Positions 20,567-34,792 of a stretch of 37,048 nucleotides of DNA are shown piece by piece. How positions within the stretch are numbered: the first letter of the stretch is position 1; each line of letters starts with the position of its first letter. The notes beneath the pieces are model-generated. The model was not told the DNA's origin. It searched no databases and saw only the letters and a list, made by a program, of their open reading frames with translations. This DNA is from Chloroflexota bacterium (lineage in GTDB: Bacteria; Chloroflexota; Anaerolineae; UBA4142), in assembly GCA_016219275.1 (NCBI GenBank), contig JACRBM010000008.1, positions 1-37,048 of the forward strand, read 5' to 3'. A program made the position numbers and the translations under genes.

Positions 20567-21748
20567 ATGAATCAGCCATTCGCCATTCGCCATTCGCCAT
20601 TCGCGATGGACGGTCGTTACATCCAAGACCACTTTCCCGGCATTGGGCGGTACACATTCAACCTGATTGACGCGCTCGCGCGTATCGCGCCGGAAGAACG
20701 CTTTGTAGTTTTGCACAACCCCACGTTGAAAAACACGCGTCACGACATCACCGTGCTCGCGCACCACCCAAACATCGAATTGCGCCGCGTGGACACGCCG
20801 ACTTTTTCTTTCCGCGAGCAATTCCCCATTCGCCATTCGCACTTCGCCATTTTGCATTCCCCCTACATCATCAAACCCTATTTTCTCCGCATCCCCTCCA
20901 TCGTCACGATTTTCGATTTGATCCCACTGTTCTTTCCGAACGATTTGCCAAACGCGCGCGTGCGAATCGTGTTTCGTCTCGCGTTGACGCTCGCTACGCG
21001 CACCGCGACGCGCATCCTCGCGCCGTCCAACTCGACGCGCGATGATTTGGTCGCGCGCCTGCGCGTGCCACGCGAAAGAATCGCGGTGACACCGCTCGCC
21101 GCCGACGCGCGATTCGCGCCGCAACCCAAATCCGAAATCGCGCGCGTGCGTGAGAAATACGATCTGCCCGCGCGATTCATTTTGAGTGTCGGCATCAACA
21201 AGCCGCACAAGAATCATGCGGTACTGATCGAAGCGTTTGATAAATTCGTAATTCGAAATTCGAAATTCGAAATTGGGTTGGTGATCGCAGGTGCATGGGA
21301 TGCGCGGTACGCCGAGCAATCGAAAATCGAAAATCGAAAATCGAAAATTTACAGATTGCCTGATGTTGCCGACGCCGATCTCCCCGCGCTCTACGCCGCG
21401 TGCGATGCGTTCGTGTTCCCGTCGTTGTACGAGGGATTCGGTTTGCCGCCGCTCGAAGCGATGGCGTGCGGCGCGCCGGTAATTTGCTCGAACGCGTCAT
21501 CACTGCCCGAAGTCGTCGGCGACGCCGCGTTGATGTTCGAGCCGCGCGACGTGAATGCGCTGTCCGCGCATCTCGCGCGAGTGCTGGACGACGCCGCGTT
21601 GCGCGACGAGTTGCGCGGCAAATCGCTTGCGCGCGCCCAACAATTTTCCTGGGAACGCTGTGCCCATGAAACTCTCGCCGTCTATGGCGAGGTCATCGCG
21701 CATCACACATCACGCCATTCGACATTCGACATTCGCTATTCGCAATGA
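20567..21748 (+). CDS. Glycosyltransferase family 4 carrying five heptamer arrays
   Basis: A 393-residue GT4 enzyme, paralogue of the gene before it. The fold is recognisable: [83 protein letters not shown] and E-x7-E. Four 7-base tandem arrays are translated within it (20575, 20826, 21243, 21319) and a fifth encodes the C-terminus and touches the next start (21715). The first array lies between two in-frame ATGs, 20567 and 20606; the usual first beta strand of the family is missing and is replaced by array-encoded residues. Despite about 12% of the gene being repeat, the frame is intact. Activity could be normal, altered or variable between cells. Confidence 0.88.
20575..20602 (+). repeat. 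Heptamer array, GCCATTC x4
   Basis: Four perfect copies of a 7-base unit at the 5' end of the glycosyltransferase gene, between ATG 20567 and the in-frame ATG 20606. Translated as a 7-residue cycle (AIRHSPF). The unit has no stop codon in any of six frames. Confidence 0.97.
20826..20860 (+). repeat. Degenerate heptamer array, CCATTCG x5
   Basis: Two exact and three diverged copies (CACTTCG, CCATTTT, GCATTCC). It encodes the segment before HSPYIIKP. Divergence suggests it is older than the array at 20575. Confidence 0.85.
21243..21270 (+). repeat. Heptamer array, AATTCGA x4
   Basis: One near-copy (AATTCGT) and three exact copies, then a partial unit. It encodes VIRNSKFEI, immediately before GLVIAG of the donor domain. 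Open in all six frames. Confidence 0.95.
21319..21346 (+). repeat. Heptamer array, ATCGAAA x4
   Basis: Four perfect copies encoding [10 protein letters not shown], replacing a loop that in the paralogue reads HVSQTGMENAV. Only 49 bases separate it from the preceding array. Confidence 0.97.
21715..21742 (+). repeat. Heptamer array, (C/A)(C/T)ATTCG-type x4, at a stop/start junction
   Basis: Units CCATTCG, ACATTCG, ACATTCG and CTATTCG, then CAATGA. They encode the last residues of the glycosyltransferase, and the ATGA that ends it and starts the next gene follows two bases later. Confidence 0.93.
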
Positions 21749-29621: not shown

Positions 29622-31265
29622 GTGAAATTTGCGAAAGCATATCCGCTGCTCGCGGTTCTCCTCACGGTGTTTGCCGTCGCGCCGTTGGAATACCCCGGCG
29701 CGTTTCAATCCCACACTGGCTTGCTCGCCTACTATAATCTGATTGACCTCGATCAACGTCCGTTTCAGTTTTTCAACTGGGCGCCGACGTTAGGCAGCGC
29801 ATTCGATCTGTTTCGCACTGAAGGCGCGTTGCCATACGTCGTCGCGCTGATCTTGCATCGCGTCGGGTTCAGTTATCTCGACGCGATCAAACTCGTGTAC
29901 GCGCTCGCGTGGGTCGGCAGTGGGCTGGCGATGTTCGCGTTCGCGCGCCGATTCTTGAGTGACGCGGGCGCGCTCCTCGCCACGACCGTGTACGTGTATC
30001 TGCCGTACCACATCGCAACCGTGTACGTGCGCGGCGCGTTCGCCGAATCGGTCGCGTGGATGTGGTTTCCACTAGTACTGCTTGCTCTGGTCAGTCAACA
30101 GTCAACAGTCAACAGTCAACAGAAATTTGCAATTCGCAATTTTGTCGCGCCGCTCTTGACGTTCGCCACGTTCGTCCTGATTCAACCTGGAATGGCAATC
30201 TTGTTCGCACCCGTCGCGTTCTCCATCGTCCTTGCAATACGCGGGCGATCTGGCATTCGCCATTCGCTATTCGCAATCCTGGGTGGACTCGCGCTTGGCG
30301 CAATCCTGTTCGCGCCCACGATTCTGCGTTACGGCGCGCACATCGCGCGCGATGGATTCAACGCGAATTTTGTTTTGCCATTTCAATTGTTCTCCGCGCT
30401 GTGGGGATTCGGCGCGAGCACCGGCAATTTCCTCGATCAATTTCCGTTTCAACTCGGCGTCGTGCCGATGGGACTCGCGATTGTCGCGATCGCGTTGGCG
30501 TGGCAGGAACGCGCGAATGAGGAACGCAACGATGTGGAACGCTCCGGCGAACGTTCCCTACGGCATATTGTGATTATTTTTCTCGCAGGCGCGATGGTGT
30601 TGACGCTACTCACTTTCGAGATCACATCGCCGCTGTGGCGCGGGCTGGGTGTGTTCGTAGAGTATCCGTGGCAACTGCTCGCGTTCGTCGGGCTTGCGCT
30701 CGCGTTCATCGCCGGGTCGGCAATCGAATTTGACGCGCGGCTCACGCGTCCGGCAATGCTCGCATTTTTTATCGCGCTGCCAGTCATCGCGAGTTACAGC
30801 TATCTCGCGCCGCGCTTTCTCGACGCCAGACCGACGCGTCCGCCCATCGCGATATTCAATGACGAGGTCGCGCTCTTGGATTATCGCATCGTCGGACCAT
30901 TGCGGCACGGCGCGACGTTGCGCGTGTACTTGACCTGGCAAGCACTGCGTCCGGTCTACACCGATTACAACGTATTCGTTCACGCGGTCCACGAAAACGG
31001 CGAGCGATACGGGCAATCGGACAACAAACCCCAGAATGGCGCGTTGCCGATGATCAAGTGGATGCCCGGCGAAGTAATTTTCGATCTGCACAAGGTTCAA
31101 ATTGACGTGGACGGACCTGACGAAGGATTTCATCTCGAACTAGGAATCTACAAGCCCGCGACCGGCGAACGCGCGCTGACTGAACGCGGCGCGGATCATC
31201 TCACTCTGCCGCGTCCCGGCGATCCGGAACCCATCGTCAGCGATCAACTTGCGCCGAGCAAATAA
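29622..31265 (+). CDS. Multi-span membrane protein, PTPS-related/YfhO-like (GT-C type), with repeat arrays
   Basis: A 547-residue protein with about ten hydrophobic segments and a soluble C-terminus. N-terminal features such as FQFFNWAPTLGSAFDL, VYVYLPYHIATVYVRGAFAE and WRGLGVFVEYPWQLLAFVGL parallel the two genes that follow, a family usually annotated as 6-pyruvoyl-tetrahydropterin-synthase-related membrane proteins and thought to be GT-C glycosyltransferases using lipid-linked sugars. The C-terminal part (LRVYLTWQALRPVYTDYNVF) is a beta-rich domain often seen in GT39-like proteins of this phylum. It lacks the HDxRH motif of its neighbours. Two heptamer arrays are translated in it (30092 and 30253). 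GTG start, probably leaderless. Confidence 0.72.
   Translation: MKFAKAYPLLAVLLTVFAVAPLEYPGAFQSHTGLLAYYNLIDLDQRPFQFFNWAPTLGSAFDLFRTEGALPYVVALILHRVGFSYLDAIKLVYALAWVGSGLAMFAFARRFLSDAGALLATTVYVYLPYHIATVYVRGAFAESVAWMWFPLVLLALVSQQSTVNSQQKFAIRNFVAPLLTFATFVLIQPGMAILFAPVAFSIVLAIRGRSGIRHSLFAILGGLALGAILFAPTILRYGAHIARDGFNANFVLPFQLFSALWGFGASTGNFLDQFPFQLGVVPMGLAIVAIALAWQERANEERNDVERSGERSLRHIVIIFLAGAMVLTLLTFEITSPLWRGLGVFVEYPWQLLAFVGLALAFIAGSAIEFDARLTRPAMLAFFIALPVIASYSYLAPRFLDARPTRPPIAIFNDEVALLDYRIVGPLRHGATLRVYLTWQALRPVYTDYNVFVHAVHENGERYGQSDNKPQNGALPMIKWMPGEVIFDLHKVQIDVDGPDEGFHLELGIYKPATGERALTERGADHLTLPRPGDPEPIVSDQLAPSK
30092..30119 (+). repeat. Heptamer array, CAGTCAA x4
   Basis: Four perfect copies encoding SQQSTVNSQQ between two hydrophobic segments. 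The + strand is open in every frame, but the reverse complement contains TGA, so only this orientation keeps a frame open. Confidence 0.97.
30253..30273 (+). repeat. Heptamer array, (G/C)(C/T)ATTCG x3
   Basis: Units GCATTCG, CCATTCG and CTATTCG encode GIRHSLFAI at the edge of a membrane span. Three units are 21 bases, so the insertion is frame-neutral. Confidence 0.88.
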
Positions 31266-31294
31266 CGCATCACACATCGCGTTTTAGATTTCGA

Positions 31295-33088
31295 ATGAAA
31301 CGTATTGATCCATATCTGATTCTACTTTTACTTTGCTCGATCTTCGCCATCGCGCCGCTCACCGCGCCCGGCTATTTTTGGGGCGCGCACGATGGGCGGC
31401 ACTCGGTGTACTTTTTGTTCGAGTTCGACCGCTCGATCCAAGATGGTATCTTTTATCCGCGCTGGGCGCCCGATTACACGTTCGGCTACGGCTATCCGAT
31501 GTTCAACATTTACGCGCCGGGCGCGTTGTACGCGAGCGAATCGTTGCATCTGCTCGGCTTTGATTTCGTCACTGCGACCAAGATCACTTTCGCGCTCGCC
31601 ATTCTATTTTCCGGCGCGGCGATGTTCGGTTTTGTCAAACGACTCACTGGGTCGAGCCGCGCGGCATTCGTGTCCGGGATCGCATACATCTACATCCCCT
31701 ACCACATCGCGGACATTTACGTGCGCGCCGCACTCGCCGAATCGGTCACACTGATTTTTCTGCCGCTGACACTATGGGGCTTTTACGACACGATTGAACG
31801 CCCGCGCGTCACGGCGGTGGTCGCCACCGCGCTGGCGTACGCCGCGATGATGTTTTCACACAATGGCATCGCGCTCATGTTCACGGTCGTGCTCGGCACC
31901 TGGGTCTTGTTCCTGATGCTGGTCAAGATTCCCGTCGCCGCACTCCGCACACGATTCCGCGATTTTATGATACTGGGTCTGCCACCTATCGGCGCACTTG
32001 TTCTCGGCGTCGGCATCGTTGCGATTTTTCTGATTCCCGCCGCGCTCGAATACCAGTACGTCCGCACCGATCAATGGCTCGGCAATTACTACGATTACTC
32101 GAAGCACTTTGCGTACTTTTTCCAATTGTTCGCGCCGACCTGGGGTTTCGGCATCAGCAACCCAGGTCCCTACGACGCTATGTCGTTCCAACTGGGCGTC
32201 ACGCCGGTTCTGTTCGCAATTTTTGCGTTCATCGCCATCGCGCAAAACCCCGGCAACTCGCGCCGCTTTTGGATTTTCTTCGCGGTCATGGCTGGCGTGA
32301 TCGCATTTTTGATGCTGGGCATCTCCGCGCCGTTATGGCAAATCCTGCGCCCGATTCTATCGTTCGCGCAATTCCCGTGGCGCTTGCTCACCCTGACGAC
32401 CGTGCCGCTCGCGATTCTCGCTGGCGCGATCATTGTCGCGCACGAAGCAGACGAGGCGCGTGATGCAACTCTGCCAACCCTTTTGCTCGGCGCGTTGATC
32501 ATCCTGGGTTCGTTCCCGTACTTACAAGCGCAGATGATCCTCGAACCGAAAGAGGGACCGGTCAGCATCCTGGGTCTGTTCCGTTTCCAGCAGAGCGCCG
32601 GCGAAATGACCGGCTCGACCGCGTGGGTGAAGGAAATTCCGGACTGGTCGCCCATCGCGGACGTTTATTTCGCGGGTAAGCGCGTCAAATCGAAGATTGA
32701 TTTCACCGACATCAACCCCGACGAAATTTGGCTCGGTGTTGACCAAGCCGGCAAGGGCGTGCGCGCGAACGGCGAACGCGTCTTTTTCGATTCGCAGGTA
32801 GACGGATTGCCGCTGACCTTCAACACATTTTACTATCCGGGTTGGCGCGCGTACCTCACGCCGGAGCACAGCGACGAGATCGTGCGCGAGTTGCCCATCA
32901 CTCAAGTCGGCGAGCTGGGTCGCATTCAAGTACGCGTGCCCAAAGGTCGTTACTGGCTGATTCTACGTTTCGAGGATTCGCTTCCGCGCGTGATTGGCAC
33001 ATGGCTCTCTGCCGTCAGCATTTTGATCGCGCTGGGTATTTTGCTGTGGGATGTTTTGAGTCGGCAAAGGATGAAAGCGGAAGGATGA
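31295..33088 (+). CDS. Multi-span membrane protein, PTPS-related/YfhO-like (GT-C type)
   Basis: A 597-residue protein with about 12 hydrophobic segments. Near residue 30, LTAPGYFWGAHDGRHSVYFL gives the early acidic/His motif on a periplasmic loop that GT-C enzymes use for catalysis, followed by FYPRWAPDYTFGYGYPMFNI. IYIPYHIADIYVRAALAES and FAQFPWRLLTLTTVPLAILA are shared with both neighbours. The C-terminal domain from about residue 420 looks extracytoplasmic (FNTFYYPGWRAYLTPEH). Probable role: adding sugars from polyprenyl carriers outside the membrane; acceptor unknown. The final codons and the TGA are made of a GGATGAA array shared with the start of the next gene. Confidence 0.75.
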   Translation: MKRIDPYLILLLLCSIFAIAPLTAPGYFWGAHDGRHSVYFLFEFDRSIQDGIFYPRWAPDYTFGYGYPMFNIYAPGALYASESLHLLGFDFVTATKITFALAILFSGAAMFGFVKRLTGSSRAAFVSGIAYIYIPYHIADIYVRAALAESVTLIFLPLTLWGFYDTIERPRVTAVVATALAYAAMMFSHNGIALMFTVVLGTWVLFLMLVKIPVAALRTRFRDFMILGLPPIGALVLGVGIVAIFLIPAALEYQYVRTDQWLGNYYDYSKHFAYFFQLFAPTWGFGISNPGPYDAMSFQLGVTPVLFAIFAFIAIAQNPGNSRRFWIFFAVMAGVIAFLMLGISAPLWQILRPILSFAQFPWRLLTLTTVPLAILAGAIIVAHEADEARDATLPTLLLGALIILGSFPYLQAQMILEPKEGPVSILGLFRFQQSAGEMTGSTAWVKEIPDWSPIADVYFAGKRVKSKIDFTDINPDEIWLGVDQAGKGVRANGERVFFDSQVDGLPLTFNTFYYPGWRAYLTPEHSDEIVRELPITQVGELGRIQVRVPKGRYWLILRFEDSLPRVIGTWLSAVSILIALGILLWDVLSRQRMKAEG

Positions 33089-33096
33089 AGGATGAA
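33069..33096 (+). repeat. Heptamer array, GGATGAA x4, at a stop/start junction
   Basis: Units GGATGAA, AGCGGAA (diverged), GGATGAA, GGATGAA. One copy supplies the TGA of the upstream gene (33086-33088) and the next supplies the ATG of the downstream gene (33092-33094); the unit also contains an AAGGA-like ribosome site. Confidence 0.9.
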
Positions 33097-34792
33097 AACT
33101 AATTCACACCAGAGTCCTTCATCCTTCATCCTTCATCCTTCATCCTTCATAATTCTTCTCGCTTTCTCCGCGTTCGCGTTGATGCCGCTCACCGCGCCCG
33201 GCTATTTCATCCAGGCGCACGACGCGCGTCACTCGGTGTACTTTTTGCAAATGTTCGATATGTCCATGCGCGACGGCGCGTGGTTTCCACGCTGGGCAGC
33301 CGATATGGTGTTCGGCTACGGCTATCCGCTCTGGCTGATTCTCGCGCCGCTGCCGTTTTTCGTCGGCGAAGCGTTTCATCTGGTCGGCTTCGATTTGGTG
33401 AGCGCGGTCAAAATCGTGGACGGACTCGCCGTATTTTTTTCCGCGATCACGATGTACCTCTTTGCGGCGCGCGCGCTCGGAAATAAAAACGCCGCGCTCG
33501 TTGCCGCGGTCGCGTACGTCTACGTGCCGTACCATCTCGCGGATCTTTACGTGCGCGGCGCGCAAGCCGAACTCATCGCGTTCGTATTCCCACCGTTGAT
33601 TTTCTGGGCATTCCACCGGCTCGCCTCCGAACCGAACGGACGGAACCTCGCGTTCGCCGCGCTGAGTTACGCCGGCATCCTGCTTTCGCACGTGCAGACT
33701 ACCGTTTTCGTCACACCCATTGTCGGCGCGTACCTTTTGTTCTTGCTTATCCGCACGCGCCATTCGCTAGTCGCCATTCGCTATTCGCTATTCGCGTCGC
33801 TCGCCATCGCGCTCGCGCTCGGGCTTGCCGCGATCTTCATGTTGCCAATCTTGTTCGAGCAAAAGTATCTGACGAGCGATCCGCTCATCGGCGGATTTTT
33901 CAACTATCGCAAACATTTCTTGAACGTATCGCAACTATTTTCGCCGTTCTGGGGTTATGGTTATGCCGGCGAAAACGGCAACGATCAATTCTCGCTTCAA
34001 CTTGGCTTGATCCCGGTCTTGCTCACGCTCGTTGCGCTGTGGCGCATTCGGCACACCGACATCGCGCACACCGCGTTCTTCGCGATTGTTCTCCTCGTTT
34101 TGGTATTCGCGATGTTGCCGATCTCCGCGCCGGTGTGGGAACCCTTCGCCGCGATTGTCGCGTTCGCGCAATTTCCGTGGCGGTTGCTAATTATCGTCGC
34201 GTGCCCGCTCGCGTTTTTGTCCGGCGCGGCATTCCTTGCGCTCGATGAATCACGCGCGTTGGTCTCCGCGCTCGCGCTCTGTCTGCTTTTCGTCATCGCG
34301 AATTTTTCGTACACGTTGCCACAGCACACAGAAGCCGTGTTCAACTATCAAACGCAAATGGCATTCGAGGTCAAGGATCGTGAATTGCTCGGCGACACGA
34401 TTTGGGTGAGCAATCGTCCCCAGGATTCGCCGCTCGTCGCGCAGTACCTCGCCGGCGAAAAACTGACGCGCGCGCTCGCGCTCGACGACAATGCGAATGT
34501 CGAAACGCTGCGGTACGGCGGACAGTCGGTAGAGGCGCGCGTGGACGCGCACGCGCCGGCAGACGTGCTGTTCTACACGCGCTATTTTCCCGGCTGGGTC
34601 GCAACGCTCGACGGTCAGCCCCTCGCGATCGAACCGTACGGTGAGCAAGGATTGATTCGCGCGCGTGTGCCCACTGGGTCACACGTTGTAAAGATTCGCT
34701 TCGAGGACACGCTCGTTCGTCAAGTTGGCGCGCTGATTTCCGGCATTAGTCTTTTGATCGCACTCGCGCTCATCAACTTTGTAAAGAGTTGA
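33092..34792 (+). CDS. Multi-span membrane protein, PTPS-related/YfhO-like (GT-C type), with repeat-derived N-terminus
   Basis: A 566-residue paralogue of the preceding gene: LTAPGYFIQAHDARHSVYFL, FPRWAADMVFGYGYPLWLIL, VYVPYHLADLYVRGAQAE, FAQFPWRLLIIVACPLAFLS and a C-terminal TRYFPGWVATLDGQP. About 12 hydrophobic segments. The first 19 residues (including SSFILHPSSFI) are encoded by a TCCTTCA array, so the N-terminus before the first span is repeat-made; a second array lies at 33760. The start codon sits within the GGATGAA array, and both arrays can pair into a hairpin covering it. Loss or gain of one repeat unit would shift the frame. Confidence 0.75.
   Translation: MKTNSHQSPSSFILHPSSFIILLAFSAFALMPLTAPGYFIQAHDARHSVYFLQMFDMSMRDGAWFPRWAADMVFGYGYPLWLILAPLPFFVGEAFHLVGFDLVSAVKIVDGLAVFFSAITMYLFAARALGNKNAALVAAVAYVYVPYHLADLYVRGAQAELIAFVFPPLIFWAFHRLASEPNGRNLAFAALSYAGILLSHVQTTVFVTPIVGAYLLFLLIRTRHSLVAIRYSLFASLAIALALGLAAIFMLPILFEQKYLTSDPLIGGFFNYRKHFLNVSQLFSPFWGYGYAGENGNDQFSLQLGLIPVLLTLVALWRIRHTDIAHTAFFAIVLLVLVFAMLPISAPVWEPFAAIVAFAQFPWRLLIIVACPLAFLSGAAFLALDESRALVSALALCLLFVIANFSYTLPQHTEAVFNYQTQMAFEVKDRELLGDTIWVSNRPQDSPLVAQYLAGEKLTRALALDDNANVETLRYGGQSVEARVDAHAPADVLFYTRYFPGWVATLDGQPLAIEPYGEQGLIRARVPTGSHVVKIRFEDTLVRQVGALISGISLLIALALINFVKS
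33115..33149 (+). repeat. Heptamer array, TCCTTCA x5
   Basis: Five perfect copies just after the start of the membrane protein gene, inverted relative to the GGATGAA array at 33069-33096. The coding strand is open in every frame while the other strand contains TGA. Confidence 0.98.
33760..33794 (+). repeat. Heptamer array, C(C/T)ATTCG x5
   Basis: Units CCATTCG, CTAGTCG, CCATTCG, CTATTCG, CTATTCG encode RHSLVAIRYSLF, joining a loop to the start of a membrane span. Same family as the arrays at 20575, 20826, 21715 and 30253. Confidence 0.93.

Follow-up and report, generated by a model that had tools for sequence, protein, structure and literature searches.

Among long simple repeats, heptamers are reported to be the most frequent class in the majority of bacterial genomes (PMC4679880). 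In Xanthomonas and Nostoc, GGGAATC / GGGGA(T/C)T repeats are dispersed over the chromosome, mostly between aligned open reading frames (ORFs), with a preference for four units; their G-rich strand is in sense orientation beside the stop codon and in antisense ahead of the following gene, close inverted pairs are frequent in Xanthomonas, and the four-unit preference was tied to G-quadruplexes by the authors of that study (PMC4692102). The TAACTGA repeats of the Beggiatoaceae and the cyanobacterial heptamers form arrays just upstream of start codons and are distributed patchily over distant lineages as direct repeats (one inverted case was reported) that are not hairpins (PMC4679880). Short dispersed hairpins that are mostly intergenic and lie by stop codons are described as REP elements (GTAG and CGTC superfamilies), which can supply stop codons or coding sequence (PMC3733652), and the palindromic elements of Rickettsia and Wolbachia (RPEs, 100–150 bp, described without heptamer arms) are able to sit within ORFs and add residues, with apparent insertion hot spots (PMC3767692). 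Ribosome termination structures are stable mRNA structures located right after a stop codon (PMC7518266). Re-initiation and translational coupling require very short stop–start distances (PMC10666635), and a contribution of RNA unfolding to translational coupling, in which upstream translation opens a stem that holds the start codon, is a recognised model (PMC12548453).

Here, a junction between two membrane-protein genes within a 37,048-nt stretch of a Chloroflexota genome (the window) was found to be one copy of a dispersed heptamer palindrome with the unit GGATGAA, and not a gene-specific switch. The nearest known relatives of the GGATGAA family are the Xanthomonas GGGAATC repeats, of which it is a new variant: the seven-base tandem unit, the dispersal, the four-unit preference and the close inverted pairs are shared, whereas the units GGATGAA, GGCGGAA and GGCAGAA contain no GGG tract, the inverted pairs have nearly all one arm order, the identical unit occurs in several phyla, and the copy studied here gives a protein its start codon and N-terminus. 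Because GGATGAA lacks G-triplets, the quadruplex explanation of the four units is not general. The family resembles the TAACTGA and cyanobacterial heptamers in its arrays just upstream of starts and its patchy distribution over distant lineages, but forms hairpins. It resembles the REP elements as a short, mostly intergenic hairpin that can lie by, or supply, stop codons and coding sequence, but carries no GTAG or CGTC tag and has arms of tandem heptamers; with the RPEs it shares the ability to sit within ORFs and add residues. Ordinary copies in gaps are similar to ribosome termination structures in that the hairpin follows the stop directly and leaves the next ribosome site outside, and the copy studied here is similar to RNA-unfolding coupling in that the start codon lies in a stem; these are functional classes, whereas GGATGAA is a sequence family, known here from sequence and predicted folds. 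No account of the family was found in the open-access literature on the unit, the encoded peptide and palindromic heptamers.

The stop–start junction and its counterparts in related genomes

The features of the junction, all on the forward strand, are as follows.

31295–33088, upstream gene, 597-aa membrane protein (PTPS_related, weak match) that ends, with its last codons and TGA, inside the purine arm.
33069–33096, 5' purine arm, GGATGAA-AGCGGAA-GGATGAA-GGATGAA; holds the TGA, AAGGA and ATG and pairs in the predicted fold with 33118–33145 and beyond.
33097–33117, inter-arm loop, AACTAATTCACACCAGAGTCC in unit register; differs from the loops of other copies.
33115–33150, 3' pyrimidine arm, TCCTTCA x5.1; translated as SSFILHPSSF.
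33092–34792, downstream gene, 566-aa PTPS_related/YfhO-type membrane protein (PF10131, E = 2.6e-9; PF09586, E = 6.4e-8; orthologue alignment).

An initial annotation of the window had proposed that GGATGAA copies supply the TGA of the upstream gene, an AAGGA-like ribosome site and the ATG of the downstream gene, and that five copies of TCCTTCA follow about 20 bases later as their exact complement. Both points were upheld when the coordinates were read again. The units are located at 33083–33089 and 33090–33096; the upstream ORF closes with TGA (33086–33088) inside the first and the second gives the downstream ORF its ATG (33092–33094), so that 3 nt separate stop and start, a distance as short as in translationally coupled pairs. 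The TCCTTCA array consists of 5.1 copies (100% identical, no mismatch) and starts 18 nt past the last GGATGAA. The purine arm is longer than first described, with an extra GGATGAA (33069–33075) and a variant unit AGCGGAA (33076–33082). In the TTCATCC register the 3' arm is exactly four full units (33118–33145), which is the modal number of the family. The pyrimidine arm is open in all three frames, and the start and first ~17 residues of the downstream protein derive from the repeat element. The two genes are tandem paralogues (41% identity) within a set of three successive related multi-pass membrane-protein genes of the PTPS_related/YfhO type (29622–34792), a tandem paralogue set that is kept in many relatives. 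A second tolerated site is found further within the downstream gene, where 33758–33795 (approximately amino acids 223–235) is an in-frame heptamer array and the same inter-helix loop of orthologues bears differing repeat-like inserts in several genera.

The junction was compared among related genomes (one per species, mostly draft). Eight of the 12 same-family genomes keep the array arrangement, with differing unit numbers; in all eight the 5' arm has the ATG at its loop end, and translation of the TTCATCC arm gives SSFILHPSSF or a near variant. The shared N-terminal residues suggest that the arrays in most of these relatives descend from one ancestral insertion, with independent gains as the alternative. 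The gene pair is still present in two genomes without an array (G003 and G009). A different purine-first array is located at the junction in G011, the 5' arm is made of another heptamer in G001, and a genome of the neighbouring family (G015) carries a CAACTTG array.

Turnover of arrays is also visible at two other junctions. The MoxR-DUF58 junction holds a GGATGAA hairpin in two genomes, GGTAATT/GGTAAAT in two, CAGT/ACTG in one and a 9/8-mer in one, and is empty in G005 (13-nt gap). The ABC-transporter junction, at which the ribosome site GGAG lies outside the array, contains GGATGAA hairpins in four genomes and other heptamer arrays in three, and is empty in G011 (18-nt gap).

A dispersed palindrome with a fixed arm order

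Eight of the nine perfect arrays with at least 2.85 copies in the window have a period of 7, where none was expected, and the window contains 8 perfect arrays in 37 kb compared with 5 in 319 kb elsewhere in the genome. The sequence TCCTTCATCCTTCATCC was found at seven loci of the genome, in every case (7/7) with an inverted GGATGAA arm just upstream. The palindrome is present at no fewer than 32 distinct places in the genome, a few of which are probably chance matches in coding sequence. Among 193 elements, the number of units peaked at four in the 5' arms (80/193) as well as in the 3' arms (86/193). Variant units are mirrored between the arms (GGCGGAA, GGCAGAA, GGATAAA); 15 were common to both arms of their element, against 4.6 ± 2.0 after shuffling (maximum of 11 in 500 shuffles). 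The loops range from 0 to 45 nt (usually 10–28 nt) and none is common to different copies, an odd feature that would argue against the element moving as one unit.

The order of the arms is nearly invariant. GGATGAA-N0–30-TTCATCC outnumbers the opposite order by 67:4 in the source genome, by 114:4, 64:0 and 87:0 in relatives and by 26:0 and 48:0 in two genomes from another family of the phylum (counts of this type include overlapping matches within single arrays). The order seems fixed in other repeat families too (CAGT-first, 15:0). A universal rule that places the purine-rich arm first was rejected, being a tendency only (44 vs. 19 across all heptamers); an order fixed per family fits better, although CAGT is not purine-rich.

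The placement of the 33 copies with stems of at least 12 pairs was determined with a simple ORF caller: 25 lie between co-directional genes, six within ORFs, one in a convergent gap and one in a divergent gap. The co-directional excess among the copies in gaps (25/27) is not significant because 86% of the neighbouring gene pairs in the genome are co-directional, and it was rejected as evidence for operon function on account of this baseline. More striking is the fit, as in most copies the stem begins at the stop codon or overlaps it and many stems end just before the next start; most mapped copies occupy the gap from the stop of one gene to the ribosome site of the next.

A short palindrome with many copies that adjoin stop codons and sometimes enter genes is what would be expected of a REP-type element that a RAYT transposase mobilises, or of another MITE of a DNA transposon (PMC3733652), and the genome encodes one Y1_Tnp gene (G000:C40:90181-90528). 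Such an origin is nevertheless rather doubtful: the REP tags are not enriched in 320 outer flanks (GTAG 3 and CGTC 9, vs. a chance expectation of 13.8 for any tetramer), the arms are heptamer arrays and the loops are not common to the copies. No target duplication and no transposase for the element were found in the genomes compared.

The arms might alternatively be ordinary simple sequence repeats (SSRs), grown by slippage and functionless. The commonness of heptamers among long SSRs in most bacterial genomes (PMC4679880) would agree with this, as would the 108 out of 171 arrays that have no inverted partner and the dominance of period 7 among short tandem arrays in unbiased samples from three genomes (27, 62, and 33 arrays vs. 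≤9 for any other period that is not a multiple of 7, with a control near zero). Plain slippage is already disfavoured and very unlikely, in that it leaves unexplained the inverted arms in fixed order (including the CAGT family), the four-unit peak, the mirrored variant units and the occurrence of the same unit across several phyla.

Other repeats were observed alongside the palindrome. Two arrays without an inverted partner lie in a glycosyltransferase operon of the window: GCCATTC x4.3 at 20567–20604, directly after a TAA/ATG junction, and a CATTCGA-type array at 21713–21748, before the overlapping stop–start at 21745. Further in-frame heptamer arrays are located inside glycosyltransferase and membrane-protein genes (20826–20840, 21242–21274, 21318–21348, 30092–30122, and 30254–30274). 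A small palindrome (ACGCGAAGCGT or close to it) is nested in the heptamer arms of many GGATGAA copies (L122, L127, L130, L134, L139, L142, L143 and L150), and also in G137, which belongs to another family. A second class of dispersed hairpins with period 10, GGACGCGGATGAACGCGGAT...ATCCGCGTTCATCCGCGTCC, was found at L007:958, L135, L136 and L148.

Predicted folding, reading frame and coupling

The RNA of 33040–33180 folds with a predicted energy of -49.7 kcal/mol, compared with -32.1 ± 3.6 kcal/mol for shuffled sequences (z = -4.9, 0/200 as good), and the same junction folded as DNA gives z = -8.0. The inner stem comprises 17 bp, in agreement with the 16-base pairing of 33081–33096 with the downstream array that had been proposed, and an outer stem with the earlier GGATGAA copy lengthens the hairpin. 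The initial annotation had this stem hide the ribosome site and the ATG, which is borne out as a prediction: the ribosome-site-like purines and the ATG lie inside the predicted stem with an unpaired probability of 0.00–0.01 in the window. The ATG is also predicted to be paired in G004, G005, G006 and G007 (approximately 0.00, as in the window), largely paired in G012, and not paired in G001 or G011. No intrinsic terminator (a GC-rich stem followed by a T-run) was found within 32900–33400, and an intrinsic transcription terminator was rejected for want of a T-run. A search of Rfam 15 gave no match reaching the gathering score, only hairpin look-alikes far under threshold.

The number of units determines the reading frame. 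As had been claimed, a change of one unit shifts the frame of the membrane protein, with 566 aa translated from five units, 17 aa from four and 133 aa from six; the array thus shares with phase-variable SSRs an ORF-internal unit with a length (7 nt) not divisible by three, whose gain or loss switches the frame. The claim that repeat number tunes the masking did not hold, as the ATG stays paired throughout a folding calculation from two to eight units and the energy is nearly flat above five. Orthologues are in frame despite differing unit numbers. Regulation by unit number has so far found no support.

These results bear on a switch particular to this gene pair, in which the array number would set stem length and register and slippage would act as an on/off control of the membrane protein. 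The paired ATG and ribosome site of the predicted fold, the frame break on gain or loss of one unit and the retention of the arrangement with varying unit numbers in eight of the 12 genomes are all compatible with it. Against these stand a predicted masking that is identical at two to eight units, orthologue frames that remain intact, relatives that retain the gene pair without the array, and the same element at many unrelated genes, which makes such a switch distinctly unlikely; the idea of a device peculiar to this gene is not supported, as the element belongs to a palindromic family with copies dispersed over the genome.

The array-free relatives G003 and G009 have a 3-nt stop–start gap or an overlap and a predicted mean accessibility around the start of 0.24 and 0.27, vs. 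0.27 with the array. Coupling does not need the array because these relatives keep the short distance and a similar accessibility, and low start accessibility was rejected as proof of function since they are equally low. Of the coupling proposed earlier, translational coupling of the pair is plausible from the 3-nt gap alone, while the array as its creator is not supported by this comparison.

A translation insulator, in which the hairpin acts like a ribosome termination structure after stop codons and blocks re-initiation, is a rather unlikely alternative. At this junction the start codon lies in the stem 3 nt past the stop, a spacing at which such structures are normally depleted (gaps <25 nt; PMC7518266). 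Elsewhere, most copies have stems that begin on the stop codon or overlap it, in gaps of tens of nucleotides, as such structures do (PMC7518266), and the GGAG outside the array at the ABC-transporter junction would also suit an insulator.

Spread and significance of the GGATGAA family

The layout of four plus four units occurs in records named as at least Acidobacteriota, Planctomycetota, Chloroflexi, Hydrogenedentes, Ignavibacteriae and Gallionellaceae; two of the Chloroflexi are isolates, Oscillochloris sp. ZM17-4 and Herpetosiphon llansteffanensis. The GGATGAA palindrome was also observed in 18 stretches (L339–L356) of IMG/VR viral-class contigs, which may carry the element from host to host or may be host DNA that was misclassified.

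Overall, the junction is probably a copy of the dispersed palindrome that overlaps both genes, with a likely effect on their coupling. The element consists of paired arms, (GGATGAA)n followed by its complement, each of about four heptamers and set around a short copy-specific loop. It resides mainly in the space that separates a stop codon from the ribosome site of a following co-directional gene, where the transcript would carry a stable hairpin immediately after the point of termination. For the pair studied here, the purine arm has been turned into stop, ribosome site and start and the pyrimidine arm into a hydrophobic N-terminus. Free ribosomes would then likely have poor access to the start, with ribosomes that have just finished with the upstream gene 3 nt before accounting for the bulk of initiation.

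How copies spread might be accounted for by an unrecognised process that writes family-specific heptamer words into intergenic gaps in several phyla, a decidedly improbable scenario. Extension of the two 3' ends at a break by the same word would give inverted arms, a fixed order and an unrelated loop, as telomerase-like or primer-templated extension would; operon junctions would be the commonest surviving sites and the arrays would then be used as termination or coupling hairpins.

To the heptameric repeats of bacteria the GGATGAA family adds a four-unit, inverted, stop-adjacent form that is not tied to G-quadruplexes. Its arm order is fixed, its seven-base word recurs unchanged across several phyla, and in related genera other heptamer words occupy its sites; these features make the origin and effect of heptamer repeats directly testable. 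The family also carries a warning for annotation, in that many predicted N-termini are repeat-derived.
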